Part shown: positions 13,425 to 26,401 of the stretch, piece by piece
Numbering within the stretch: position 1 is the first letter of the stretch
Layout of the letters: the number at the start of each line of letters is the position of its first letter
Assembly (NCBI GenBank): GCA_027624045.1
Contig: JAQBUE010000017.1
Location: forward strand, 1 to 46,548
Origin: Acidobacteriota bacterium
GTDB lineage: Bacteria > Acidobacteriota > Terriglobia > Bryobacterales > UBA6623
Direction: 5' to 3'
DNA length: 46,548 bases
Notes under the pieces: model-generated
What the model was told of the DNA's origin: nothing
The model's database searches: none
Seen by the model: only the letters and a program-made list of their open reading frames with translations
Position numbers and translations under genes: made by a program

Positions 13425-13490
13425 TTTTGCGGGGGTTCTCTCTTTCTGGAGCCGAGAATGCAATGATTGGGGTTCGGAGGAGCCGAGCCT

Positions 13491-15194
13491 GTGTCGCAGC
13501 AAAGCATTGCCCCCAAAGTGTCATCAACAGCCCGTTTCACAAGGCGATCCCTGCTCGGGGCCACTGCCCTAAGCGCTACCGCGGCAGCGGCCCCAGCGAT
13601 CCCATCGGAAATCGTCCGCGCCAACGACGAAGGAGTCGAAGGCGTTCTGCAAAGTCAGAACACCGACCCCGCCAGCCGTTGGCGGGGCGCGCTCCCCGAC
13701 GCGACGGGCCTTCACAACCCCGGCTCGGCCAGCGGCGTGCTTGAGCGTTTGACGGCATCTTTCCTTCACCCGGAATCGAAATTCCACAACGACCCGGTTC
13801 TGTTTGAGCGGATGAAGCTCGCCGCCGGCCACCTTGACCGCACGCAAACTCCCGACGGCAATGTCGACCTGCTCATCACCAACTTCAACTCGCCGCCCGA
13901 CACCGCCTTCGTGACTCTCAACGTAGCGACGGCAGCCTTTCTCGCACGCAAACACAATGCAGCGGAACTGTTCGGTCTGATGAAGGGCTTTCTCACCAGA
14001 GCCGGCCGCGCCATGGCCAACGGCGGTGTTCACACGCCGAACCATCGCTGGATCATGTGCGCCGCTCTCGCGCAGATCAACGAAATCCTCCCCGACCCCT
14101 CGCTCGTGCGCCGCATCGAAGCGTGGCTGGCCGAAGGAATCGACATTGACGAAGAAGGCCAATACAGCGAGCGCAGCACCACGGTTTACAACGCCCACGT
14201 CGACCGCGCGCTGACGATCGTCGCCCACAAGCTCAACAAGCCCGAGCTTCTCGAAGCGGTGCGCAAGAACCTCGACACCATGATGTACCTGCTGCACCCA
14301 GGCTACGAGGTCGTTACCGAAATTTCACGACGTCAGGACCGCAACACCCGCGCCACGGTGGGCTCGTACTGGTTCCCGCTGCGCTATCTCGCCATGAAGG
14401 ACGGCAATGGCCGGTACGCTACGTTGGCGAAGCACTTCGAGCCACGCCACGCGCGCCTCTCCGCGCTGATGGAATACCCCGCGCTGAATGAGGCCTGGCC
14501 CGCGGAGCAGCCCCCCCCCGAGGATTACGAGAAACAGTTCCCGGTCACCGGTATCGCCCGTATTCGCCGCGGCTTCACCAGCGCCACGCTGATCCTCGGT
14601 GGCAGCAGCCAATTCTTTTCCGTCCGGCGGGGCGATGCCGTTGTGAACGCGGTCCGCTTCGCTGCGGCTTTCTTCGGCAAGGGACAGTTCGTTCCCGATG
14701 AAGCCGAGAAGCGCGACGGGGCTTATCACTTGCGGCAATCGCTCGATGCCGGCTACTACCAGCCCTTCGACCCTCCTCGCAAGGCCGACTGGGGTGTCGA
14801 CAATTGGTACGAGGTAAGAGAAGGGCGGCGGCGCAGTGAGATCTGCCGCATCAACTACTCAGCCGAGGTCCGCGAACAAAGCAATGGATTCTCGATCCGC
14901 ATGAAAGCCGACGGCACCGATCATGTTCCCTTGGCGGTGGAAGTGAACCTGCGCGAAGGAGGGCGGCTGTCAGGCGTTTCGCCCGCTCTCGGCGTACCGG
15001 AAGCCTACATACTGGCGCACGGCTACGCCCATTACGAACTCGGCTCCGACGCGCTTCGCTTCGGCCCCGGCCTCAAAGAGAACGACTACACACAGGTCCG
15101 CGGTGCGCAGCCGAAACTCTCCGGCCCCAGCGTCTACCTCACCGGATTCACGCCCTTCGATCACACCCTGAATTTCGAATGGACGCAGGGCTAG
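13491..15194 (+). CDS. Large Tat-exported protein, possible polysaccharide lyase-like toroid
   Basis: A 567-residue protein. GTG at 13491 is chosen over TTG at 13467 because GGAGGAG (13476-13482) lies 8 nt before it. The N-terminus has a twin-arginine signal (FTRRSLLGATALSATAAAAP, residues 16-35). The mature N-terminal half is helical (RLTASFLHPE; FLTRAGRAMANGGVHTPNHR; VDRALTIVAHKLNKPELLEA), as in an alpha/alpha toroid. The C-terminal part is beta-rich (GFSIRMKADGTDHVPLAVEV; PSVYLTGFTPFDHTLNFEW). Such a toroid-plus-sandwich layout is typical of heparinase-like lyases and some glycoside hydrolases, but I cannot place it in a named family or point to catalytic residues. It stands alone. Confidence 0.7.
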   Translation: MSQQSIAPKVSSTARFTRRSLLGATALSATAAAAPAIPSEIVRANDEGVEGVLQSQNTDPASRWRGALPDATGLHNPGSASGVLERLTASFLHPESKFHNDPVLFERMKLAAGHLDRTQTPDGNVDLLITNFNSPPDTAFVTLNVATAAFLARKHNAAELFGLMKGFLTRAGRAMANGGVHTPNHRWIMCAALAQINEILPDPSLVRRIEAWLAEGIDIDEEGQYSERSTTVYNAHVDRALTIVAHKLNKPELLEAVRKNLDTMMYLLHPGYEVVTEISRRQDRNTRATVGSYWFPLRYLAMKDGNGRYATLAKHFEPRHARLSALMEYPALNEAWPAEQPPPEDYEKQFPVTGIARIRRGFTSATLILGGSSQFFSVRRGDAVVNAVRFAAAFFGKGQFVPDEAEKRDGAYHLRQSLDAGYYQPFDPPRKADWGVDNWYEVREGRRRSEICRINYSAEVREQSNGFSIRMKADGTDHVPLAVEVNLREGGRLSGVSPALGVPEAYILAHGYAHYELGSDALRFGPGLKENDYTQVRGAQPKLSGPSVYLTGFTPFDHTLNFEWTQG

Positions 15195-15415
15195 CCTGCA
15201 TGTTCGTAGGCTTACCTTGCGGACTTGCTGGCAGGTCGGACCGCTTTCTGAGGGGTTGTGAAGAAGCCGGGGAACTGTGCCCAAGCGCGGTGATCGCAAT
15301 GTTTTAGATTGCGGACCGTCTCCGATTGTTTTCAGAGCCCCTGGCGTGCGCGCCTTCGACTAGAAAATAGGCGCTGGGTGGGGCAGGATTTATGCCGGGG
15401 GATTGAAGTGTCTGG

Positions 15416-15856
15416 CTAGTTCTCGCCCCGCGCTTTGCGGGTCTTGGGAGCCTTGGGGGGCGGTGCAGCGGCTTTTTCCTTCGACGGCATCGGACGCGCC
15501 GTCGGAACGAGCGAATTCGAGAAACTTGGCGGCGGCTTCTCGGGCAGGCTGCCGAGATGCTCGGTCACATAGGCCACGAACTCCTGCATCTGCTGCTGCA
15601 TGCCTTCCATCTTCTCGCGCATGTTGAGGATGATCTCGACACCCGCCAGGTTTACACCCAGATCGCGCGTAAAGGAAAGAATCACCTCCAGCCGTTCCAT
15701 ATCCGCTTCGGTGTAGAGGCGGGTATTCCCATCCGTGCGAGAGGGCGACAGCAAGCCTTCTCGTTCATACAAACGCAACGTCTGCGGATGGATGTCGAAA
15801 CGGTCGGCAACGACCGATATCGTGTAAGCTCCGAGAGTTTTTTTTCTACGTGCCAT
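15416..15856 (-). CDS. MerR-family heat-shock repressor HspR
   Basis: This 146-residue protein begins with a MerR winged helix-turn-helix (YTISVVADRFDIHPQTLRLY, then YEREGLLSPSRTDGNTRLYT), which is the HspR form. A coiled helix follows (GVEIILNMREKMEGMQQQMQ), then a Pro/Lys/Ala-rich tail. HspR represses dnaK operons by binding HAIR sites, with DnaK as corepressor. It is the third gene after dnaK and dnaJ, 9 nt downstream of dnaJ. A HAIR-like site lies on the dnaK promoter at 19238-19258, so autoregulation is likely. Confidence 0.92.
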   Translation of the reverse strand: MARRKKTLGAYTISVVADRFDIHPQTLRLYEREGLLSPSRTDGNTRLYTEADMERLEVILSFTRDLGVNLAGVEIILNMREKMEGMQQQMQEFVAYVTEHLGSLPEKPPPSFSNSLVPTARPMPSKEKAAAPPPKAPKTRKARGEN

Positions 15857-15865
15857 CGGAGAGTG

Positions 15866-17020
15866 TCATTCAAACAACCCGGCGCGGGGATCTTCGGGGT
15901 TTAGGTTAGCAAACTCGCTCATCATGGCCTTCGAGGCCTCGTCCGGCACCTCGGGCACGACGATCTTGACCTCGACGAACTGATCGCCACGGTGGTTCGT
16001 ACGGCGGTTGAGGACACCCTTTTCCCGCAGCCGGAAACGCTTTCCGGAACTGGTGGCGGGCGGAATTTTCAGCCGCGCCTTGCCGTCGATCGTCGGAACT
16101 TCGATTGCCGCCCCCAGAATCGCTTCCGGCACCGTGATGGGGATCTGCATGTGGATGTCGTCGCCTTTGCGCTCGAAAACAGGGTGCGATCCGACCCGCG
16201 TCACGATGTAGAGATCGCCCGCCGGCCCGCCTCTCTGGCCGGCATTGCCCTTGCCGGCAACGCGCAATCGCGATCCGCTCTGTGCGCCCGGCGGAATGCG
16301 GACTTCAACCGTCTCATTACGGTAGATACGGCCTTCCCCGGCGCACTGGCCGCACACGTCTCGCAATTGCCCCGACCCCTGGCAGCGTGGGCAGGTCAGA
16401 TTGAAACGCATGGCGCCCACGGACTGCGAAACTTGGCCGGATGCGTTGCATTCGGCGCAGGCGACGCTGCCTCTGCCGATGTTGCCGCCGCCCCGGCACT
16501 GCGGGCAGGGTTCATGCCGCGCCACGTTGAGCCGCAGGGTCGTGCCCTTGATGGCGTCCCAGAACTCGATGTCGACGTTGTACTCGAGATCCTCGCCCGG
16601 CTGTGCCTGGCGGGGCGCTTGCTGCTGATCTTGGCGGAAGAACTGCGAGAACAAGTCGGAGAAACCGCCTTCCTGATGTCCTTGCTTTCCTCCGGCCCCC
16701 CCGCCCTGGGCACCGGAAAAGTCGAAGCCGGAAAAATCAAAACCTCCCGGCCCGCGTCCTGCTGCCCCACCGCCGGGGTAGGCGCCAGCCTCGGAATAGA
16801 AGCCGAACTGGTCGTACATGTCGCGCTTCTTTTGATCTTTGAGAATGTCGTAGGCCTGTTGGATCGTTTTGAACTTATCTTCGGCCGCTTTATCGCCGGG
16901 ATTCACGTCGGGGTGATGCTTGCGCGCAAGACGGCGGTAGGCCTTGCGGATGTCATCGGCCGAAGCGCTCTTCTTGACGCCGAGGGCCTTGTAGTAATCT
17001 TTTTGGTCCGTTCCCGTCAC
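15866..17020 (-). CDS. Chaperone DnaJ
   Basis: A 384-residue type I Hsp40 that stimulates the ATPase of DnaK and delivers unfolded substrate. Parts in order: the J domain (about 8-74, with KHHPDVNPG carrying the HPD motif), a Gly/Phe-rich linker, four zinc-binding CxxCxGxG-type repeats ([32 protein letters not shown]), and the C-terminal substrate-binding domains. The start is GTG at 17020, with GGGGGAGAAGC just before it. It lies between dnaK (185-nt gap) and hspR (9-nt gap). No grpE is present in this operon, unlike the common dnaK-grpE-dnaJ-hspR order. Confidence 0.97.
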
Positions 17021-17105
17021 GCTTCTCCCCCGGAGCCCGGGCTCCTAATGAATTCAGATGATTCGGACGCGGCGTCTGCTCACGAAGCCGCTAGCCGCGG
17101 CAGCC

Positions 17106-17141
17106 CCTCCTGGAAAGCCTCCTGGAAAGCCTCCAGGAAAG
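17106..17141. repeat. Three tandem 12-bp units in the dnaK-dnaJ gap
   Basis: Units at 17106-17117, 17118-17129 and 17130-17141 read CCTCCTGGAAAG twice and CCTCCAGGAAAG once. On the minus strand one frame reads as GFPG repeats, a composition like the Gly/Phe-rich linkers of chaperones. That frame is a different one from the end of dnaK and has no start signal. Confidence 0.75.
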
Positions 17142-17205
17142 CCGCCGCGACGGACCGGCTCCCGGAGTGGTTCGCGTTGCGCTTTGGCGGCGATCCGCGT
17201 CGTGT

Positions 17206-19137
17206 TTAGGAGTCCTTAGGCTTATCCTCCACGTCCACGAATTCAGCGTCGACCACATCCTCTTTCTTGTCGTCTCCGGTCTCTCCGCCGGACGCGCCGT
17301 CGGACGATGTGGCTCCCCCGGCGGCTCCATCACCCGACCCGCTTGCGGATTTATACATCGCTTCGGCAAGCTTGTGGCTGGCTTGAGTCAGGTTCTCAAC
17401 CGTGCGATTGATCTCAGCGGGATCGCCCGCCTGCACGGCCTTCTTGGTTTCCTCGATAGCCTCTTCAATCTTCTTCGCGTCGTCTTCGCCGATCTTCGAG
17501 CGGTGCTCCTTGAGCGTGTTTTCGGTGCTATAGATCATGGCGTCCGCACGGTTGCGGGCCTCGACCTGATCGCGCCTCTGCTGATCCTCGGCTGCGTGGC
17601 TCTCGGCGTCGCCGGCCATTTTATCGATTTCCTCCTTCGAGAGCCCCGACGAACTGGTGATGGTGATCTTCTGTTCCTTGGCCGTCGCTTTGTCCTTCGC
17701 CGAGACGTTCAGGATGCCGTTGGCGTCGATGTCGAATGTGACTTCGACTTGCGGCACGCCTCGCGGCGCCGGCGGAATACCGACCAGCTGAAAGACGCCG
17801 AGCAGACGGTTGTCGGCCGCCATCGCCCGCTCACCCTGGTAGGTCTTGATCTCTACCGATGTCTGGCTCTCGGCCGCGGTCGAGAAGACTTCGCTCTTGC
17901 GCGTGGGAATGGTGGTGTTGCGCTCGATCAGCTTCGTGAACACACCGCCGAGCGTCTCGATGCCGAGCGACAAGGGTGTTACGTCGAGCAGTAAGACGTC
18001 CTTCACTTCACCGCCGAGCACGCCGCCCTGCACGGCGGCGCCGATGGCGACGACTTCGTCGGGGTTCACGCCCTTGTGGGGCTCTTTACCGAACAGTTCT
18101 TTAACAAGCTGCTGCACCTTCGGAATACGCGTCGAACCGCCGACAAGTACGACTTCATCAATCTGGCTCGGCGTAATCGCGGCATCGGCAAGCGCCTTCT
18201 TGCAAGGCTCGAGGGTGCGCCGCAAAAGCGGTTCCATCATTTGCTCGAGGTGGGCGCGCGTTAGCTTCAATTGCAGGTGCTTGGGTCCGCTGGCGTCAGC
18301 TGTGATGAAGGGCAGATTGATCTCGGTCTCAAGCAATGTCGACAGATCCATCTTCGCCTTCTCGCCGGCTTCCTTGAGCCGTTGCAAGGCCATCTTGTCA
18401 GCGGATATGTCAATGCCTTGTTCCTTCTTGAACTCCCCGATAATCCACTCGATCAGCAACTGGTCAATGTTGTCGCCGCCCAGGTGCGTATCGCCATTGG
18501 TGGCCTTGACTTCGACCACGCCTTCGCCCACTTCGAGGATCGAAATGTCAAACGTGCCGCCGCCAAAGTCGTAAACGGCAATCGTCTCGTTCGTCTTCTT
18601 GTCGAGACCGTAGGCAAGAGCGGCCGCTGTCGGCTCGTTGATGATGCGCTGCACCTCGAGGCCGGCGATCTTGCCGGCATCCTTGGTCGCCTGCCGCTGC
18701 GAGTCGTTGAAATAGGCGGGGACGGTGATGACCGCCTGCGTCACCTTCTCGCCCAGAAAAGCCTCCGCCGCCTCTTTGAGTTTGGCCAGCGTCATCGCCG
18801 AGATTTCCGGCGGTGAGTATTCCTTGCCGGCGGCCATGATCTTCACCATGTCGCTACCGGGCGCAAGTTCGTAGGGTACGAGGCGCATTTCCTGCTGCAC
18901 TTCGCTCGACCGGCGGCCCATGAACCGCTTGATTGAGAAAATCGTGTTTTCCGGGTTTGTAACGGCTTGGCGTTTGGCCGCCTGTCCGACGAGTCGTTCG
19001 CCCGTCTTCGTAAACGCGACGACCGACGGCGTTGTACGGCCACCTTCCTGGTTGGGAATAACGTTGGGTTGGCCGGCCTGCATTACGGCTACGACCGAGT
19101 TGGTCGTCCCCAAATCGATTCCGATGATCTTGCCCAT
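17206..19137 (-). CDS. Chaperone DnaK (Hsp70)
   Basis: A full-length 643-residue Hsp70. It has the N-terminal ATPase signature [48 protein letters not shown] and [16 protein letters not shown]. The substrate-binding domain begins after [19 protein letters not shown], and the Gly/Ser/Asp-rich lid tail ends [17 protein letters not shown] lies 7 nt before the ATG at 19137. It is the first gene of the dnaK-dnaJ-hspR operon and is divergent from the molybdate permease. Its promoter (19229-19257) overlaps a HAIR-like repressor site. Confidence 0.98.
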
Positions 19138-19228
19138 GATGTTGCTCCTTCTCGTCGGCCCTTCAGCCTTGTTGTGCGTCTCAACCGGTACAGATCAGCT
19201 GCTCCGGTTGATTTCTTAGCTTATAGTT

Positions 19229-19257
19229 ATTATTAAACTTTAGTGTGTTGTTGTCAA
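19229..19257 (-). promoter_or_regulatory. dnaK promoter
   Basis: On the minus strand TTGACA (19252-19257, a perfect -35) is followed after 17 nt by AATAAT (19229-19234, five of six bases of the -10 consensus). It lies 92 nt upstream of the dnaK ATG, in the most AT-rich stretch of this intergenic region. Confidence 0.75.
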
Positions 19258-19258
19258 G
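19238..19258 (-). promoter_or_regulatory. HAIR-like HspR operator on the dnaK promoter
   Basis: The minus strand reads CTTGACA, seven bases, ACTAAAG. The HAIR consensus is CTTGAGT-N7-ACTCAAG, so 11 of 14 half-site bases match with the right spacing. The site covers the -35 box and most of the spacer, where a repressor would block RNA polymerase. hspR is the third gene of the operon it would control. Confidence 0.72.
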
Positions 19259-19463
19259 CTATTACTGTTCTGTCGTGTCGCTTATTCTATCAAGTGTCTA
19301 TTTATCAATGCTTTAAACATGACATGGGGCAACTGGACACCTGTTCTCTCGAAACCATATATAGTGAAGACCGTTTTGAAGTTCTACCCAGCATACGAGC
19401 CTCGCATCTCCTTTGCTGTGAACAGCGCCATGGAGTGCCACCAGCCCGATAGGCGAACGACGC

Positions 19464-19469
19464 TATAAT
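19464..19469 (+). promoter_or_regulatory. -10 box for modB
   Basis: A perfect TATAAT lies only 13 nt before the modB ATG, so a transcript starting 6-7 nt further on would have almost no leader. I see no good -35 at 16-18 nt upstream. Confidence 0.45.
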
Positions 19470-19482
19470 CTGGACCGTTACG

Positions 19483-20163
19483 ATGCTGAGCGATTTTTCC
19501 GCGATTGACTGGTTTCCACTGTGGCTGAGCCTGCGTGTGGCTTGTCTGGCGACGGCGATTTCACTGGCTGTCGGGCTGACTCTGGCGTACGTTCTGGCGA
19601 ACCGCCGTTTTCGAGGAAGGAATCTGGTTGAGGCCGCTGTCACGTTGCCGATCGTACTGCCGCCCACGGTTCTGGGTTTCTACCTGCTTATCGTCCTGGG
19701 CCGAAACAGTCCGCTGGGTGGCGCCTATGAAACGCTTTTTGGCGTGCCTCTCGTCTTCACCTGGCAGGCGGCGGTGGTGGCGGCCTGTCTGCATTCCATA
19801 CCGCTGCTCATCCGGGCCGCTCGGGCGGCTTTCGAATCGGTGGATCACACCTTCGAGAACGCCGCTCGCAGTCTGGGGGCGACGGAATGGCGGGTCTTCT
19901 GGAAGGTTAGCTTGCCGCTGGCGCGCCGCTCGATCGTGGCGGCGGGTGTTTTCGCCTTCGCGCGCGCGCTGGGGGACTTCGGCGTGACAATGATGATCGC
20001 CGGAAATATTCCGGGCAGCACACAGACGATGGCCGTGGCGATATACGACGCCGTGCAGTCGGGCCAAACGCGGGTCGCCAACGTGCTGGTGATCGTGATG
20101 TCGGCGCTGGCGTTGACGATCTTGTGGGTCATGAATCAGGCCGGAGAGAGGCAGGCGCGTTGA
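19483..20163 (+). CDS. Molybdate ABC transporter permease ModB
   Basis: A 226-residue inner-membrane permease with about five membrane segments, for example LRVACLATAISLAVGLTLAY, VLPPTVLGFYLLIVLG and a C-terminal VLVIVMSALALTILWV. The cytoplasmic EAA loop that docks on the ATPase is ARSLGATEWRVFWKVSLPLA. ALPPTVLGFYLL-type and GDFGVTMMIAGNIPG segments are typical of ModB. It overlaps modC by one base (TGATG). A ModA binding protein is not encoded next to it. A near-perfect TATAAT lies just upstream, with little leader. Confidence 0.93.
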   Translation: MLSDFSAIDWFPLWLSLRVACLATAISLAVGLTLAYVLANRRFRGRNLVEAAVTLPIVLPPTVLGFYLLIVLGRNSPLGGAYETLFGVPLVFTWQAAVVAACLHSIPLLIRAARAAFESVDHTFENAARSLGATEWRVFWKVSLPLARRSIVAAGVFAFARALGDFGVTMMIAGNIPGSTQTMAVAIYDAVQSGQTRVANVLVIVMSALALTILWVMNQAGERQAR

Positions 20164-21290
20164 TGCCGAGGCTGCTCGTAGAGATTCGCAAGAGCTATCC
20201 GGCCGCGCTCGACTCGGCTGCCTTCGACCTTGATGTACGCTTCGAGGCCGGTGACGACGTAACGGTTCTTTTCGGACCGAGCGGCGCCGGCAAGACGCTG
20301 ACCCTGGAGTCGATCGCGGGCTTCATCCGCCCCGATCAGGGCCGCATCGAACTTGGGGATGATGTGTTGTTTCACTCCGGCGCTGGAGTGTGCCGCGCGG
20401 CCCGTCGCCGAGGCTGCGGCTATGTCTTTCAGAAGGACGCGTTATTTCCGCACATGAGCCTGCGGCAAAATCTCGAGTTCGCCGCCATGACTCTTCCAGC
20501 CCACGAGCGCGGACGGCGGGTTCAGGAGGTGCTCGAACAGTTTCGCCTGCAAGGCCTAGCCGCCCGCCGGCCCCATGAGGTTTCAGGCGGCGAACGTCAA
20601 CGGGGCGCCATCGCGCGGGCACTGATTGGGCGTCCGCGCCTGCTGCTGCTCGACGAGCCGGCCCGAGGCCTTGATGTCGGATTACGCCGCGAACTCTATG
20701 CAACGCTGCGTCAGGTGCGGGCCGACTACCGCCTCGGCATGGTGCTCGTAACCCACGACCGTGAGGAGGCGTTCGAACTTGGCGATCGCATGTTGGTTTG
20801 CCGCCAGGGACGTATCGTTCAAAGCGGACCACCGCGCGAAATCTACCGCCATCCCTCTTCCCCCGAAGTCGCCCGTCTGCTCGGGCGCATCAACGTCTTT
20901 GAAGGAAAAGTGATTGACTCGGACGAATCCCGCGATCAGACGCGCCTTTCCACCGGCGAACTCGATATCGCAACCGCACACCTGCCCAACGCTCCCAATG
21001 GCGCTCGCATCGCCTTCGCGGTGGATGCCGAACGGGTTCTCGCCCGGCCCTGCGACCCCTCAACGCGGAACGGGTCAGACGGAGCTTTGCGATTGATTCG
21101 GGCCGTCTCGCTTCACGATCACGTGCGCCTGGACTTCCCGGGCTCGCTGAGCGTCATGGTTCCCGAGGACCTGTTCGAGCAAAGCGCCGGCGCGAACGAA
21201 TGGTCAGTCGAGTTTCCCGCCGAGTCTATTTGGGTTTTCCCTGGCGCCCCCGACACGACGGTCGCCGCGGGCGACGAAACACGCGGCTAA
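20163..21290 (+). CDS. Molybdate ABC transporter ATP-binding protein ModC
   Basis: A 375-residue ATPase driving molybdate import through ModB. It has Walker A GPSGAGKT, Q-loop GYVFQKDALFPHMSL, signature VSGGERQRGAIARAL, Walker B LLLLDEPARGLD and switch histidine VLVTHDREEAF. The C-terminal region after about residue 235 has the length of a Mop/TOBE-type regulatory domain. The ATG at 20163 overlaps the modB stop, and the product begins MPRLLVEIRKSYPAA, the usual ModC beginning. Without a neighbouring modA the substrate (molybdate, possibly tungstate) is inferred from the family. Confidence 0.93.
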   Translation: MPRLLVEIRKSYPAALDSAAFDLDVRFEAGDDVTVLFGPSGAGKTLTLESIAGFIRPDQGRIELGDDVLFHSGAGVCRAARRRGCGYVFQKDALFPHMSLRQNLEFAAMTLPAHERGRRVQEVLEQFRLQGLAARRPHEVSGGERQRGAIARALIGRPRLLLLDEPARGLDVGLRRELYATLRQVRADYRLGMVLVTHDREEAFELGDRMLVCRQGRIVQSGPPREIYRHPSSPEVARLLGRINVFEGKVIDSDESRDQTRLSTGELDIATAHLPNAPNGARIAFAVDAERVLARPCDPSTRNGSDGALRLIRAVSLHDHVRLDFPGSLSVMVPEDLFEQSAGANEWSVEFPAESIWVFPGAPDTTVAAGDETRG

Positions 21291-21299
21291 CGGCTTGCT

Positions 21300-21923
21300 T
21301 TGATCCTCTACTACATCACCGACCGCAAACAGTGCAACGGCGACCTCGCCGACACGATCGAAAGCGTGGCTGCCGCGGGAGTGGACTGGATTCAGATCCG
21401 CGAGAAAGACCTTCCGGACCGGGAGCTTTACGCCCTTGTTCAGGCCGCCCTGGCGCGAACGCGAAAAACCACTGCCCGCATCCTGGTCAACGGACGCACC
21501 GACGTGGCGCTTGCCGCCGGCGCGCACGGTGTCCATCTGCCGGCCGATAGCCTTTCCGCCGCTGCCGTTCGCGCGATCGTACCAGCCGGTTTTCTGGTCG
21601 GCGCCTCATGCCACAGCGTCGGCGAGGCCGGGCAGGCCGAGAGCGAAGGCGCGGACTTCGTGGTGTTCGGACCGGTTTTCGATACGCCCTCCAAACGCGG
21701 GTACGGGTCGCCGGCCGGCATCGCTGAACTCGAACGCGTCGGCCAGGCAGTGCGCATTCCCGTCTTGGCGCTCGGGGGTGTCAGTGTCTCAAACGCATCA
21801 CAGTGCTTGCGCACCGCGGCGGCGGGGATCGCGGGTATCTCCATTTTTCAGGGTGCGGATTCAGCGCGGCAACGGATCGCTGAGCTGCGCAGCCTATCCC
21901 GCGACCCGACTTCGGGCCAGTAG
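21300..21923 (+). CDS. Thiamine-phosphate synthase ThiE
   Basis: A 207-residue TIM-barrel enzyme that joins HMP-pyrophosphate and thiazole phosphate to thiamine phosphate. Family signatures are WIQIREKDLPDREL, ILVNGRTDVALAAGAHGVHL (with LPADSLS), GASCHSVGEA, FVVFGPVFDTPSKRGYG and the phosphate-binding VLALGGVSVSNA. The start is TTG at 21300, only 9 nt after modC; no ATG gives the full N-terminal strand ILYYITDRKQC. Probably co-transcribed with modBC, although no functional link to molybdate is known to me. Confidence 0.93.
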   Translation: MILYYITDRKQCNGDLADTIESVAAAGVDWIQIREKDLPDRELYALVQAALARTRKTTARILVNGRTDVALAAGAHGVHLPADSLSAAAVRAIVPAGFLVGASCHSVGEAGQAESEGADFVVFGPVFDTPSKRGYGSPAGIAELERVGQAVRIPVLALGGVSVSNASQCLRTAAAGIAGISIFQGADSARQRIAELRSLSRDPTSGQ

Positions 21924-21961
21924 TTCAGGGAAACCCGCGGCTGTGGGAAAATAGTCACCCT

Positions 21962-23023
21962 ATGCCAGAGTTATCGATTGCCATCATTCCCGGTGACGGC
22001 GTCGGCCTGGAGGTCATGCCCGAAGCACTGAAAGTGCTCGACCTGATCGCCGACCGCTACGACGTTCGCTTCAACTACAGCGAGTTCGAGTGGGGCACGA
22101 ACTACTACTTCGAGCACGGCGAGATGATGCCCGCGGGGGGTATCGACGAGTTGCGCCCATTGGACGCCATTCTGCTCGGAGCCGTCGGCCACCCGGGCGT
22201 GCCCGACAACGTCACTTTGAACGGCCTGCTACTGCCGATTCGGCGAGCGTTTGATCAATACGCCTGCGAGCGGCCGGCGAAACTTTACGCCGGTGTCGCG
22301 TCGCCGCTCGCCAACCCAGGCGCGATCGACATGGTGATCGTGCGCGAGAACACCGAAGGGGAATACGCGCAGGCGGGCGGATTCGTGCATCAGAATCACC
22401 CGGCGGAGGTTGCGATCCAGACTTCGGTCTTCACGCGACACGGTGTTGAACGCATCATCCGCTATGCGTTCGAGTTGGCGCGCCGCCGCAATCGCAAGAA
22501 GCGCGTCACCTCGATCACGAAGTCGAACGCCCAAGGCTACAGCATGGTGCTGTGGGACCGTGTCTTCACCGAAGTGGCGGCCGACTACCCGAACATCGAA
22601 ACGGAGTCGCTGTTGGTCGACGCGGCGGCCATGAATTTTGTGCGCCGGCCGGCAAGCTTCGATGTCGTTGTGGGCTCGAATCTGTTTGGCGACATCTTGA
22701 GCGATCTCTCGGCCATCCTCACCGGCAGCATGGGCTTGGCGCCCAGCTCGAACCTCAATCCGTCGCGCGAGTTTCCTTCGATGTTCGAGCCGGTGCATGG
22801 CTCGGCGCCCGACATCGCCGGACAGGGAATCGTGAACCCGATCGCGATGATCTTGAGCGCGGCTATGATGCTTGACTTTCTCAGCTTGTCCGACGCCGCC
22901 CGTGTTGTGGAAAACGCCGTGGCAGCGGTCCTAGCCGACGGGAAAACGTTGCCGCGCGACTTGGGCGGGAGCGCTTCGACGAGCCAAGTCACGTCCGCGA
23001 TTCTCGATAAGCTGCGCCAGTAG
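21962..23023 (+). CDS. Tartrate dehydrogenase/decarboxylase-type beta-decarboxylating dehydrogenase
   Basis: This 353-residue protein belongs to the isocitrate/isopropylmalate dehydrogenase fold. The segment FEWGTNYYFEHGEMMP and the following DAILLGAVGHPGVPDN are typical of the TtuC/DmlA branch, which acts on tartrate or D-malate with NAD and a divalent metal. Other elements are IAIIPGDGVGLEVMPEAL (N-terminus), VIVRENTEGEYAQAGG, the catalytic TSITKSNAQGYSMVLWD and the metal-binding GSNLFGDILSDLSA. EPVHGSAPDIAGQGIVNPIA ends the active site. Which of tartrate, D-malate or another hydroxyacid is the true substrate cannot be told from sequence. It follows thiE by 38 nt. Confidence 0.9.
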   Translation: MPELSIAIIPGDGVGLEVMPEALKVLDLIADRYDVRFNYSEFEWGTNYYFEHGEMMPAGGIDELRPLDAILLGAVGHPGVPDNVTLNGLLLPIRRAFDQYACERPAKLYAGVASPLANPGAIDMVIVRENTEGEYAQAGGFVHQNHPAEVAIQTSVFTRHGVERIIRYAFELARRRNRKKRVTSITKSNAQGYSMVLWDRVFTEVAADYPNIETESLLVDAAAMNFVRRPASFDVVVGSNLFGDILSDLSAILTGSMGLAPSSNLNPSREFPSMFEPVHGSAPDIAGQGIVNPIAMILSAAMMLDFLSLSDAARVVENAVAAVLADGKTLPRDLGGSASTSQVTSAILDKLRQ

Positions 23024-23149
23024 CTGAGTACCGGTTTCAAGGTGAGGCAGCAATCTTACTGCGGCGGCAGCGCCTTTCCAGAAACAATCGCCGGAAAGCG
23101 GTGTCTATGAAGCAGGAGTACTTCGAAGGATGCAACTTCACAGCGCGCA

Positions 23150-23608
23150 ATGAGGACGCTCCTTAGTTACTGGCGGCAGCCTCTTGGGATCGGATTGGCT
23201 GCGGCCCATGCGATTACCCTCGCTTTCGTAATTGCCGCGAAGGAACCGCTCCCGCCGCCGAGATCAGACGACGAAGCATGTCTGCCTGAGGTGGTTTGCT
23301 TTGACACGTGGAACTTCGCCGGCCAGATAGTGGTTGCGCACCGACCCTTTCATTTTCACTACGAAACGTTGCTCACGAAGACCTTGATGCTGGGTGATCT
23401 GCCCTCACTGCTGGTAGTGGACATCACGCTTGGGGTAGCAGCCGCAATCTTTGAACTGACATGGAGGGTGTCTGAACCTCCACTGGACGCAGTGATTGTC
23501 CGCCAAGCCAGCTCATACTTGCTCGCGTTCTGTTGGTTTGTCTTCGGCTCTCTACAGTGGTGGATCGTCGGCATGTATGTCTGGGCGAAGGGTGGAGTGA
23601 AGAAATAG
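23150..23608 (+). CDS. Small integral membrane protein, unknown
   Basis: A 152-residue protein with an N-terminal membrane segment (LGIGLAAAHAITLAFVIAA), a soluble stretch with two cysteines (CLPEVVCFDTWNF), a middle hydrophobic segment (LPSLLVVDITLGVAAAIFEL) and a C-terminal one (LLAFCWFVFGSLQWWIVGMY). It starts at ATG 23150 with no strong ribosome-binding site. I do not recognise the family; the topology suggests two or three membrane spans. It stands alone between a dehydrogenase and a convergent isomerase-like gene. Confidence 0.62.
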   Translation: MRTLLSYWRQPLGIGLAAAHAITLAFVIAAKEPLPPPRSDDEACLPEVVCFDTWNFAGQIVVAHRPFHFHYETLLTKTLMLGDLPSLLVVDITLGVAAAIFELTWRVSEPPLDAVIVRQASSYLLAFCWFVFGSLQWWIVGMYVWAKGGVKK

Positions 23609-23756
23609 TCGGGCTCACGCACGCGACACGACTTATCCAGCATTTGCATTGAGACCGGGATCAGCGACCGGTGTGAACGTGCCGGTAAATGTAATGCTAT
23701 GTCCCGTGTTCGATCGGTGAAAGCAGAGCGAGGAAGTTCGCTGTGAGACCGCGCGG

Positions 23757-24626
23757 CTACGCCGCTTCCGAAACCAGCCGCTGCAGACTCCGGGCGCAAA
23801 TCGAACTGCCCTTAAACTTGTCGCCGCCTGGACCACCCCAGTGAGTTTCGAGGCTAACCACGCCGCTGTAGCCGTCGCGCACCATGGCCGATAGCTGGCC
23901 GGTCCAATCGACATCGCCCGCGCCCAGGTCGCCCCAGTTCATACGGTCGCTCCCTGGAGGCAGCACGCCGTCTTTGGCATGAACATGCAGAATGCGATTC
24001 GCGGGCAGCAGGTTGTAGCCGTCCGGATAAGGTACTTCGCCGGCGATGTAGCAGTTCGCCGGGTCCCACACCAGCCCCAGGTTCGGATGGTCGATGGCAT
24101 TGAGCACGGTCGCCGACTCCGAAGCCGTGGCGATGTTGCAGGCATGCTCGTTCTCGAGCCCGATCTTTACGCCGGCGGCGGCGCCCTGTTCGGCGGCCCC
24201 TCGCAGCGCTTCCACAATGCGCGCGGTGATCCGGGCGGGCTCGACAGTCCGCCAGAAGCTAAATACACGAACGATGGGAGCCTCGAAAATGTTGGCGATT
24301 TCGAGCGCGCGCGCCAGGATGCGCGGCTGATCTTCGTAGGTGTGGGCGGAATGAAAAGCGTCCTGCTCGAAACGTTGGTCGATATCGCCCCCATCCGGGA
24401 GCGTGCACTTGAAAACGGGCGAGGCGATCGAGACAATCTTGAGCTTGAACTCACTCGCGAGTTGGTCGACTTGACGGAGTTCTTCGTCGTTCATATCGAC
24501 GATGTTCTTGTCCCAAACCGTCCGCAGTTCGAGAGCCGGTATGTGCATGTCGACAGCGGTGCGGCAGATCCGTTCAAAATCCTGAGTGAACTCATCGGTG
24601 ATAATAGCCACGGGGAAGTTCGCCAT
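23757..24626 (-). CDS. Sugar phosphate isomerase/epimerase-family TIM-barrel protein
   Basis: A 289-residue xylose-isomerase-like TIM barrel (AP_endonuc_2 fold). Predicted metal ligands are in KIGLENEHACN (Glu), LVWDPANCYIAG (Asp), RILHVHAKDG (His) and VVSLETHWGG (Glu). The N-terminus FPVAIITDEFTQDFERICRT is typical of the family. Members include inosose dehydratases, tagatose and psicose epimerases and hydroxypyruvate isomerases, and sequence alone does not choose among them. It is divergent from the glycosyltransferase at 24713, with 86 nt between the starts. Confidence 0.85.
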   Translation of the reverse strand: MANFPVAIITDEFTQDFERICRTAVDMHIPALELRTVWDKNIVDMNDEELRQVDQLASEFKLKIVSIASPVFKCTLPDGGDIDQRFEQDAFHSAHTYEDQPRILARALEIANIFEAPIVRVFSFWRTVEPARITARIVEALRGAAEQGAAAGVKIGLENEHACNIATASESATVLNAIDHPNLGLVWDPANCYIAGEVPYPDGYNLLPANRILHVHAKDGVLPPGSDRMNWGDLGAGDVDWTGQLSAMVRDGYSGVVSLETHWGGPGGDKFKGSSICARSLQRLVSEAA

Positions 24627-24712
24627 AGGGGATTAGTTTACCCCAACGGCCGGCCGGTCTTACGGGCGCGTCCCGCGGCTGCGAATCCTGATCGAAAGCT
24701 CGGCAATTAACG

Positions 24713-26401
24713 GTGAAACAGAGCCTCGCTACTATCATTGTTCTGACGCTGCTCGGCGCGCTGGCGGCGGCCCGCATCGTCGACACCTACGACGAGTTCA
24801 ACGCGACGTTCGACGAGGGTTATCAGGTCGCGGCGGGGTTGCAGGCCTATCAGCAGGGTCGATTTGACGCCGGAGCCGAGCAGCCGCCTCTGGTGCGATG
24901 GGCGCTTGCTCTGCTGCCGCACCTTGCCGGAATCGAATACCGCTCGACCGGGCCATGGGCCGCGCAACCCAGCGATCATATTCCGCTGATGGCCCAGACG
25001 GTCTTCGAGCAGCAAGGTGATTACTGGCACACCTTGAAGCTCGCTCGCATGGGCAACCTTCTCTTCCTTCCTTTTCTCTTGCTTTACACGCACCGCTGGG
25101 CGGCGGCGCTGTATGGCCGTTACTGCGGCTGGGCGGCCTGCGCGATCGTTACGCTGTCTCCGAATATCTTGGCGTCCGCCGCGCTGGCGACCGTTGATTT
25201 CGGTTTCACGGTGTGCCTGCTTGCGGCTAGCTATTACCTTTGGCGTTGGCTGGCCGAGCCGGACCCGCGTCGCAGCCTCATGCTGGGTTTGGCTTTGGGC
25301 TTCGCGATTGGGCTGGCTGTCGCGGCGAAGTATTCGGCGATTCTGTTCCTGCCCGCGGTGCTGCTCGGATTGCTCGCTGCTAGGCAGGGCGGGTCTTTGT
25401 GGCGGCCGCGCTCATGGCGAACCGGGCAGATACGAATTGCGAAGATGCGTCAAGCCGCCCGCTCGCTCGTTCCGGCGGCATTGCTGGCCTTACTAACCAT
25501 CTGGGGCGCCTACGCTTTCGAAATGCGCCCGTTGCGGGACCCGGCTCGCCGGCCCTACGACACCGTCGAGTCGCGGCTGCCGGAGTCTTCAAGCCTCAAA
25601 ACGGCCGTCTATTGGGCGATCGAAAGCGTTCCACTGCCTTTGCAAGACATGGTCACCGGCATCGAATACGTCCGGGAACACGCCGCGGGTGGTCATCCCG
25701 CCTTCCTGCTACGAGAAGTCCGGCAACACGGCTGGTGGCACTACTTTCTGGTTGTGCTGGGAGTCAAGACTAGCTTGCCCTTTCTGGCGCTTATTGCGTT
25801 GGCGGGACTGCTCGTATTCCGCCGAGGCGGGATTGACGGTGATGCTCTAGGGCCGCTCGCCGCGGCGTTGGGCATCCTGTTGGCCGTAATGCCGAGCCCG
25901 CTGAATGTCGGTGTGCGGCACATTTTGCCGATCTACGCGCTGCTCGCGATCTGGGCGTCGTCATGCGTGGCCGAGGCGGGCCGGCGCCGCTCGAAAGCTT
26001 GGGGAGCCGCCGTCCTGCTACTGCTTTGCTGGCATGGCGTCGAGTCGCTTCGGGCGCACCCGGATTACCTGCCCTATTTCAACCAGATCGCACGTGGTAG
26101 GGAGCACAAAGTACTCGGCGATAGCAACCTTGACTGGGGACAGGATCTCCATCGGCTGGCGCGTTATGTGGAGGAGAATGGGATCGAGGATCTCGCCCTG
26201 AACTACTTCGGCACCACATCTCCCGAGGCGGTTGGACTTGAAGACTCCCGCCGGTTCGGTCCCGGCGATCGCCCCCGGGGCTGGGTCGCGCTGAGTGTCA
26301 CGAACCTCCAAGGCATCTACCAGCCGCGGCCTGCCTGGCTCGATGCGCACGAGCCGCGCGCCCGCGTGGGCAAGTCGATTTATTTGTATTTCATCGAATA
26401 A
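24713..26401 (+). CDS. Membrane-bound dolichyl/undecaprenyl-phosphate-dependent glycosyltransferase (GT39/ArnT-like)
   Basis: A 562-residue polytopic membrane protein. After the first membrane helix comes NATFDEGYQVAAG, with the acidic pair (Asp34-Glu35) expected at the catalytic site of PMT/ArnT-type enzymes, then EQPPLVRW, matching the HPPL-type motif. Several hydrophobic helices follow (for example LGLALGFAIGLAVAAKYSAI and ILPIYALLAIWASSCV). The C-terminal soluble part carries VLGDSNLDWGQDLHRL, a feature of this subfamily. It should transfer a sugar from a polyprenyl-phosphate donor on the periplasmic side; donor and acceptor are unknown. The start is GTG at 24713. Confidence 0.85.
   Translation: MKQSLATIIVLTLLGALAAARIVDTYDEFNATFDEGYQVAAGLQAYQQGRFDAGAEQPPLVRWALALLPHLAGIEYRSTGPWAAQPSDHIPLMAQTVFEQQGDYWHTLKLARMGNLLFLPFLLLYTHRWAAALYGRYCGWAACAIVTLSPNILASAALATVDFGFTVCLLAASYYLWRWLAEPDPRRSLMLGLALGFAIGLAVAAKYSAILFLPAVLLGLLAARQGGSLWRPRSWRTGQIRIAKMRQAARSLVPAALLALLTIWGAYAFEMRPLRDPARRPYDTVESRLPESSSLKTAVYWAIESVPLPLQDMVTGIEYVREHAAGGHPAFLLREVRQHGWWHYFLVVLGVKTSLPFLALIALAGLLVFRRGGIDGDALGPLAAALGILLAVMPSPLNVGVRHILPIYALLAIWASSCVAEAGRRRSKAWGAAVLLLLCWHGVESLRAHPDYLPYFNQIARGREHKVLGDSNLDWGQDLHRLARYVEENGIEDLALNYFGTTSPEAVGLEDSRRFGPGDRPRGWVALSVTNLQGIYQPRPAWLDAHEPRARVGKSIYLYFIE

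Follow-up and report, generated by a model that had tools for sequence, protein, structure and literature searches.

The segment at 19258-19238 on the minus strand, upstream of dnaK in the 46,548 nucleotide stretch analysed here (the window), is very probably an HspR operator merged into the sigma-70 promoter of an autoregulated dnaK-dnaJ-hspR operon. This prediction draws on the sequence and position of the segment, its conservation, its association with the presence of HspR and the genes found behind its copies; from these we infer HspR binding, repression, autoregulation and cooperativity. The putative operator reads CTTGACA-N7-ACTAAAG, with ACAACAC between the half-sites, and agrees with the HAIR consensus CTTGAGT-N7-ACTCAAG at 11 of 14 half-site bases. 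It forms part of a promoter stretch, CTTGACA-ACAACAC-ACTAAAG-TTTAATAAT-AACTATAA-GCTAAGA on the same strand, located 77 to 121 bases 5' of the dnaK start (19137). The -35 hexamer TTGACA (19257-19252) is a 6/6 match and is followed, after a 17 bp spacer, by the -10 element AATAAT (5/6), which gives 11/12 agreement with sigma-70 and the best promoter-like site across 18000-26000. The -35 together with 14 of the 17 spacer bases falls within the HAIR-like operator. A preliminary description of this DNA had proposed both the 11/14 HAIR match and its overlap with the -35 and most of the spacer of a strong promoter, and it was right on sequence, coordinates and overlap.

Table 1 Features of the dnaK-dnaJ-hspR locus and its predicted operator-promoter.
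Feature	Position	Strand	Evidence
dnaK (643 aa)	17206..19137	-	NF001413, 1011 bits (cut-off 648)
dnaJ (384 aa)	15866..17020	-	TIGR02349, 375.4 bits (cut-off 377.2); NF008035, 354.8 bits (cut-off 338)
hspR (146 aa, MerR-type repressor, HspR-like)	15416..15856	-	Last in operon; NF047375, 101 bits, E 2.7e-29 (cut-off 105)
Left HAIR half-site CTTGACA (predicted)	19252..19258	-	Contains the -35 TTGACA as its final six bases; constant spacing of TTGA[CT]A to the right half in relatives
Right HAIR half-site ACTAAAG (predicted)	19238..19244	-	Inside 17 bp spacer; RCTMA at spacing 7 in relatives
-10 element AATAAT	19229..19234	-	Promoter scoring; conserved block TTTNATAAT
Candidate third HspR half-site GCTAAGA	19214..19220	-	24 bp after right half, near inferred start site

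The gene order dnaK-dnaJ-hspR makes hspR the last gene of the operon, as the preliminary description held. The region 15200-17300 contains no promoter-like site and a single terminator-like site, fewer than in shuffled sequence. The three genes occur together in 94 of 97 tabulated loci, the window included (dnaK is missing from L066, L132 and L137), and in most of the family's loci a gap of 12-15 bp separates dnaJ from hspR. The hspR product contains a MerR-type helix-turn-helix domain (MerR_1 PF13411, 64 bits, cut-off 21.6), and the next family after two HspR models scores 48.4 bits. As the protein is 4 bits short of the NCBIfam NF047375 equivalog cut-off, it is to be read as HspR-like by best match and context, and not as a curated member of that family. 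It is nonetheless the sole strong HspR match in the 5.5 Mb genome, the runner-up scoring 33.5 bits. Among actinobacterial plasmid HspR loci, 31 records with MerR-type matches were retrieved, none of which covers 80% of the query. Downstream of hspR lies a convergent 575 aa open reading frame (13467-15194, plus strand) without a Pfam match at E 0.001.

If at most three mismatches are allowed, HAIR is matched four times in the window against 1.25 expected, a count reached by 4 of 100 shuffles, and a looser HAIR pattern is not enriched genome-wide (67 matches versus 72 for the reversed control). The sequence alone therefore proves little and the test has to be comparative; it is through position and conservation that the HAIR match becomes significant.

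We determined the distribution of the element in Bryobacterales, the order of Acidobacteriota to which the window can be assigned from its relatives. A strong HspR match (E < 1e-36) is present in 99 of the 100 genomes searched there. The exception (G083, best match E 3.7e-4) has no close dnaK either, the best being 50% identical. Three of the 100 relatives fall outside the locus table (G016, G020 and G083, the last being the one without HspR). Of the 97 dnaK-hspR loci tabulated, again with the window, 88 hold the dnaK start; the other nine (L066, L132, L137, L147, L153, L104, L116, L122, L128) were left out. Of these 88 loci, 83 have TTGA[CT]A-N7-[AG]CT[AC]A in the 300 bases before dnaK, compared to a mean of 0.04 in 50 dinucleotide shuffles and 0 for the reversed pattern. 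Other spacings from 0 to 20 gave nine loci at spacing 10, five at spacing 20 and 0 or 1 elsewhere. All five misses (L124, L127, L144, L146, L152) belong to one genus. A strict 29-base pattern that includes the -10 is found in 79 of 100 relatives, and its reversed control in none of the 100. Thirty such loci were examined; 29 of them precede dnaK and the other precedes hsp20. In two genomes (G022, G071) hspR is not beside dnaK, and the operator stays with dnaK. The commonest right arm in the order is ACTAAAG, and none of the 83 sites reaches 12/14 or more to HAIR. One genus (g6; L064, L065, L067-L069, L072, L073) seemingly has TATACT, further downstream, as its dnaK -10, and most of its loci have another repeat, GTTGACTAAGGTTAAGTCATG in L073, that overlaps the first and lies 10 bases beyond it; the operator and its promoter seem to be shifted relative to each other in this genus.

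Beyond the order, 249 of the 297 genomes sampled from the phylum have an HspR match of E 1e-20 or better. A motif-blind sample of 40 HspR loci was drawn from the HspR positions listed for these genomes; a single family of the same class supplied 20 and other families the remaining 20. Five of the 40 were dropped for lack of a usable dnaK start. TTGAYA-N7-RCTMA lies upstream of dnaK in 33 of the remaining 35, with shuffles giving 0.02, the reversed pattern 0, and other spacings 0 except for spacing 3 (six loci) and spacing 19 (one). The two misses (L454, L461) have GTTGACT or ATTGATT as left arm. The preliminary description had named absence of the pattern upstream of dnaK in HspR-bearing relatives as its refutation, and neither the order nor the phylum sample refutes it. 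In these motif-blind sites the exact HAIR arm ACTCAAG is the commonest right arm (17/33), and 8/33 match HAIR at 12/14 or better. A set of 58 named loci with a dnaK start, overlapping the other locus set, contains two (L349 and L377) in which the best site, as read from the list of sites, departs from RCTMA. The strict pattern with its -10 occurs in only 45 of 297 phylum genomes, versus HspR in 249; many of the phylum dnaK promoters inspected have the operator with a different -10. Thirty strict-pattern loci examined across the phylum lie before dnaK (21), hsp20 (4), clpB (2), groESL (1) and dnaJ-hspR (1), with nothing recognised behind the last (L263).

The sample contains 48 genomes without HspR, of which 20 were taken and 16 had a usable dnaK start (G178, G173, G117 and G151 were dropped). 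Only two of the 16 carry TTGAYA-N7-RCTMA upstream of dnaK, against 33/35 with HspR (Fisher p 1e-8, uncorrected for relatedness). One of the two, G130, in which no HspR was found, is a 77% complete genome. The other, G106 (L472), is given as 100% complete and has a best HspR match of E 6.5e-7, yet its dnaK is preceded by GTTGACA-N7-ACTCAAT; a genus mate (G270) has HspR, and either a recent HspR loss or an assembly gap would account for the site. The other 14 promoters are of two kinds. Nine (L473, L474, L475, L478, L481, L482, L484, L485, L487) read CTTGAC-N15-TCTTA, which we take to resemble RpoH-type promoters and which is also found in 2 of the 35 HspR-bearing loci, on top of a HAIR-like site. 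The other five (L476, L477, L479, L480, L483; families f19 and f37) have a sigma-54-type TGGCA-N6-TTGC 51-56 bases before dnaK. The gene next to dnaK in L477 is divergent and encodes a response regulator whose sigma-54 activator domain matches PF00158 at 253.5 bits. A similar regulator in L479 (24.9 bits) and a response-regulator domain in L476 are each cut by the end of the locus. These neighbours suggest that dnaK in the HspR-less f19 and f37 loci is under two-component, sigma-54 control.

The left arm CTTGACA can be derived from HAIR CTTGAGT by two changes (GT to CA), which yield a perfect -35. Over 116 counted sites the left arm reads TTGACA in 112 and TTGATA in 4. HAIR-type copies located 26 bp upstream, where they have no -35 role, instead read TGAG(T/C). 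Such copies are present in L077, L115 and L161 (13/14 to HAIR) and in four of the five loci of the genus missed above, which have CCTGAGT-N7-GCTAAAA 26 bases upstream of their TTGA(C/T)A. The upstream copies are few and partly related, and all point the same way. Together with the TTGACA count they back the double role of the left half-site as -35 that had been suggested from the window.

These comparisons also bear on the main alternative, namely that the conserved blocks are merely promoter elements, belonging to a strong sigma-70 promoter or to a heat-shock sigma factor that reads RCTMA in the spacer and RCTAA near the start as well. TTGACA-N17-AATAAT is indeed a complete promoter, and an alignment of the 88 promoters, weighted by genus, has four conserved blocks (columns 1-8, 14-19, 22-30 and 36-43), the first and third of which correspond to the -35 and -10. 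A promoter does not explain, however, why the spacer contains RCTMA at precisely the distance expected for HAIR, why the commonest right arm in the phylum sample is the full HAIR arm, or why HAIR-type copies recur 26 bp upstream without a promoter role. Furthermore, the element is missing from 14 of 16 HspR-less loci, nine of which keep CTTGAC. We consider a pure promoter origin improbable, and favour the HspR operator.

The first three blocks of the alignment are inflated because they were used for anchoring; block 36-43 was not. The latter repeats the right arm at +24: of 87 dnaK promoters from Bryobacterales, 65 have RCTMA at column 39, and strict-pattern sites outside the order have it at +24 in 24 of 37 cases (the 30 strict-search phylum loci plus seven stretches, some from the same genomes), compared to about 0.3% or less at other columns. 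None of 25 Bryobacterales hsp20 promoters has this third half-site. As RYTMA is present there in only 7 of the 33 motif-blind phylum loci, we rejected the third half-site as a phylum-wide feature; it is limited to Bryobacterales and part of the other lineages. In some lineages it reads GCTCAAG or GTTCAAG, nearer to HAIR. We read it as a candidate flanking HspR half-site over the transcription start, although it may instead be an initial-transcript signal.

The same promoter type appears to drive hsp20 genes. In the window's own genome, the composite pattern with up to two mismatches occurs at four places (reversed control two): before dnaK (0 mismatches), before two hsp20 genes (C187:974-1002, 1 mismatch) and at two others (2 mismatches each). 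A second pattern, suited to hsp20 promoters, occurs in 20 of the 100 relatives, and its control in none of them; 19 of the 20 places precede hsp20, and nothing was recognised behind the other (L406). The preliminary description had suggested looking for the pattern upstream of dnaK and clpB, and for clpB the connection is indirect. In a genome of the same genus (G001) two hsp20 genes are followed by clpB, and clpB is probably driven through this hsp20-clpB arrangement. In the own genome clpB lies on a separate contig that ends about 114 bases before the gene, so that the link to clpB is by synteny; no site was found directly before clpB in the 331 bases still on the contig. Separately, two phylum loci, L428 (G163) and L265 (G231), have the composite promoter before groES-groEL, and HspR may thus control GroE in some Acidobacteriota.

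In the proposed mechanism, an HspR dimer would bind the half-sites 19258-19252 and 19244-19238. Since the -35 hexamer is itself part of the left half-site, HspR on its operator would keep RNA polymerase out, and bound polymerase would keep HspR out. In lineages with the third arm, another dimer would probably sit on this additional right-type half-site (19220-19214 in the window) and cover the -10 and start. Heat would free HspR, by titrating DnaK if the analogy with Streptomyces, where DnaK is the HspR co-repressor, holds, and the operon would be transcribed until newly made HspR switches it off again. A different role for HspR, as a MerR-type activator untwisting an over-long spacer, would fit its MerR helix-turn-helix and the placement of the dyad between -35 and -10. 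MerR target spacers are 19-20 bp, however, and the spacer here is the optimal 17 bp. Furthermore, the known HspR proteins are described as repressors in the available parts of the literature (PMC6102357, PMC7464140, PMC6888292). Activation is thus very unlikely. Another repressor at the site, for example HrcA on CIRCE, under which dnaK operons often stand, is scarcely credible despite the similarity of RCTAA to a CIRCE end, since CIRCE (TTAGCACTC-N9-GAGTGCTAA, up to three mismatches) has no match in the window, the best CIRCE score in the 300 bases upstream of dnaK is 9/18, and presence of the site follows HspR.

The predicted HspR operator can be compared with known systems. In Streptomyces, hspR lies within the dnaK operon. 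According to the accessible portions of two papers, Streptomyces HspR controls that operon through the 21 bp HAIR CTTGAGT-N7-ACTCAAG, with several sites per promoter (PMC6102357, PMC7464140). The operon analysed here resembles this system, which also includes clpB, in its hspR gene, a predicted HAIR-type inverted repeat and several putative sites. It differs in lacking grpE between dnaK and dnaJ, in a left arm CTTGACA that is a perfect -35, in the right arm ACTAAAG of the own genome, and in the register of its additional sites, which lie 24 bp downstream and, in certain relatives, also 26 bp upstream. In Helicobacter pylori and Campylobacter jejuni, too, some operons have a HAIR-like site that overlaps the core promoter or lies close to it, and the same portions describe autoregulation in H. 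pylori and flanking, cooperative HspR binding (PMC6102357, PMC7464140). In H. pylori, HAIR over the promoter is proposed there to nucleate dimers on both sides via unknown determinants, and in C. jejuni a high-affinity HAIR is flanked by low-affinity HAIR-like sites (PMC6102357, PMC7464140). In contrast to H. pylori, for which these portions give no recognisable flanking motif, most dnaK promoters of the order studied here have a candidate flanking half-site of conserved sequence at a conserved distance. Deinococcus radiodurans, in the part of the report available, has HspR with HAIR sites outside Actinobacteria (PMC6888292), and is likened here on HspR and HAIR. A promoter alignment of five Corynebacterium species contains conserved HAIR boxes, as far as the section available describes it (PMC3917453).

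Heat-shock control by HspR and HAIR outside Actinobacteria, a further point of the preliminary description, is thus supported here and is not new, being in print for Helicobacter, Campylobacter and Deinococcus. What is new is the phylum, the fused -35 arm and the fixed half-site array. Literature searches on HspR and heat shock in Acidobacteria or Acidobacteriota, on Solibacter and on RegPrecise, judged by title and covering few subscription papers, found nothing on this system. The fusion of -35 and operator may not be unique to Acidobacteriota. We see an even chance that, in Acidobacteriota, the HspR operator and dnaK core promoter form one composite, in many lineages with three half-sites in fixed register (the -35 arm, a spacer arm 14 bp on and a start-site arm 24 bp further), so that the cooperative flanking determinants would be readable from sequence, and that on loss of HspR the element is replaced by an RpoH-like promoter or by a sigma-54 promoter with an NtrC-type activator next door.

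To our knowledge, Acidobacteriota are common in soil and hardly studied genetically. The composite element gives them a predicted heat-shock regulon comprising dnaK-dnaJ-hspR, hsp20, clpB and, in places, groESL. It would also be a clean case of one sequence serving as both polymerase and repressor contact, for which the copies without -35 role, with their canonical arm, act as an internal control. The register of its half-sites also makes cooperative HspR binding open to testing, a question not settled by the work on Helicobacter.
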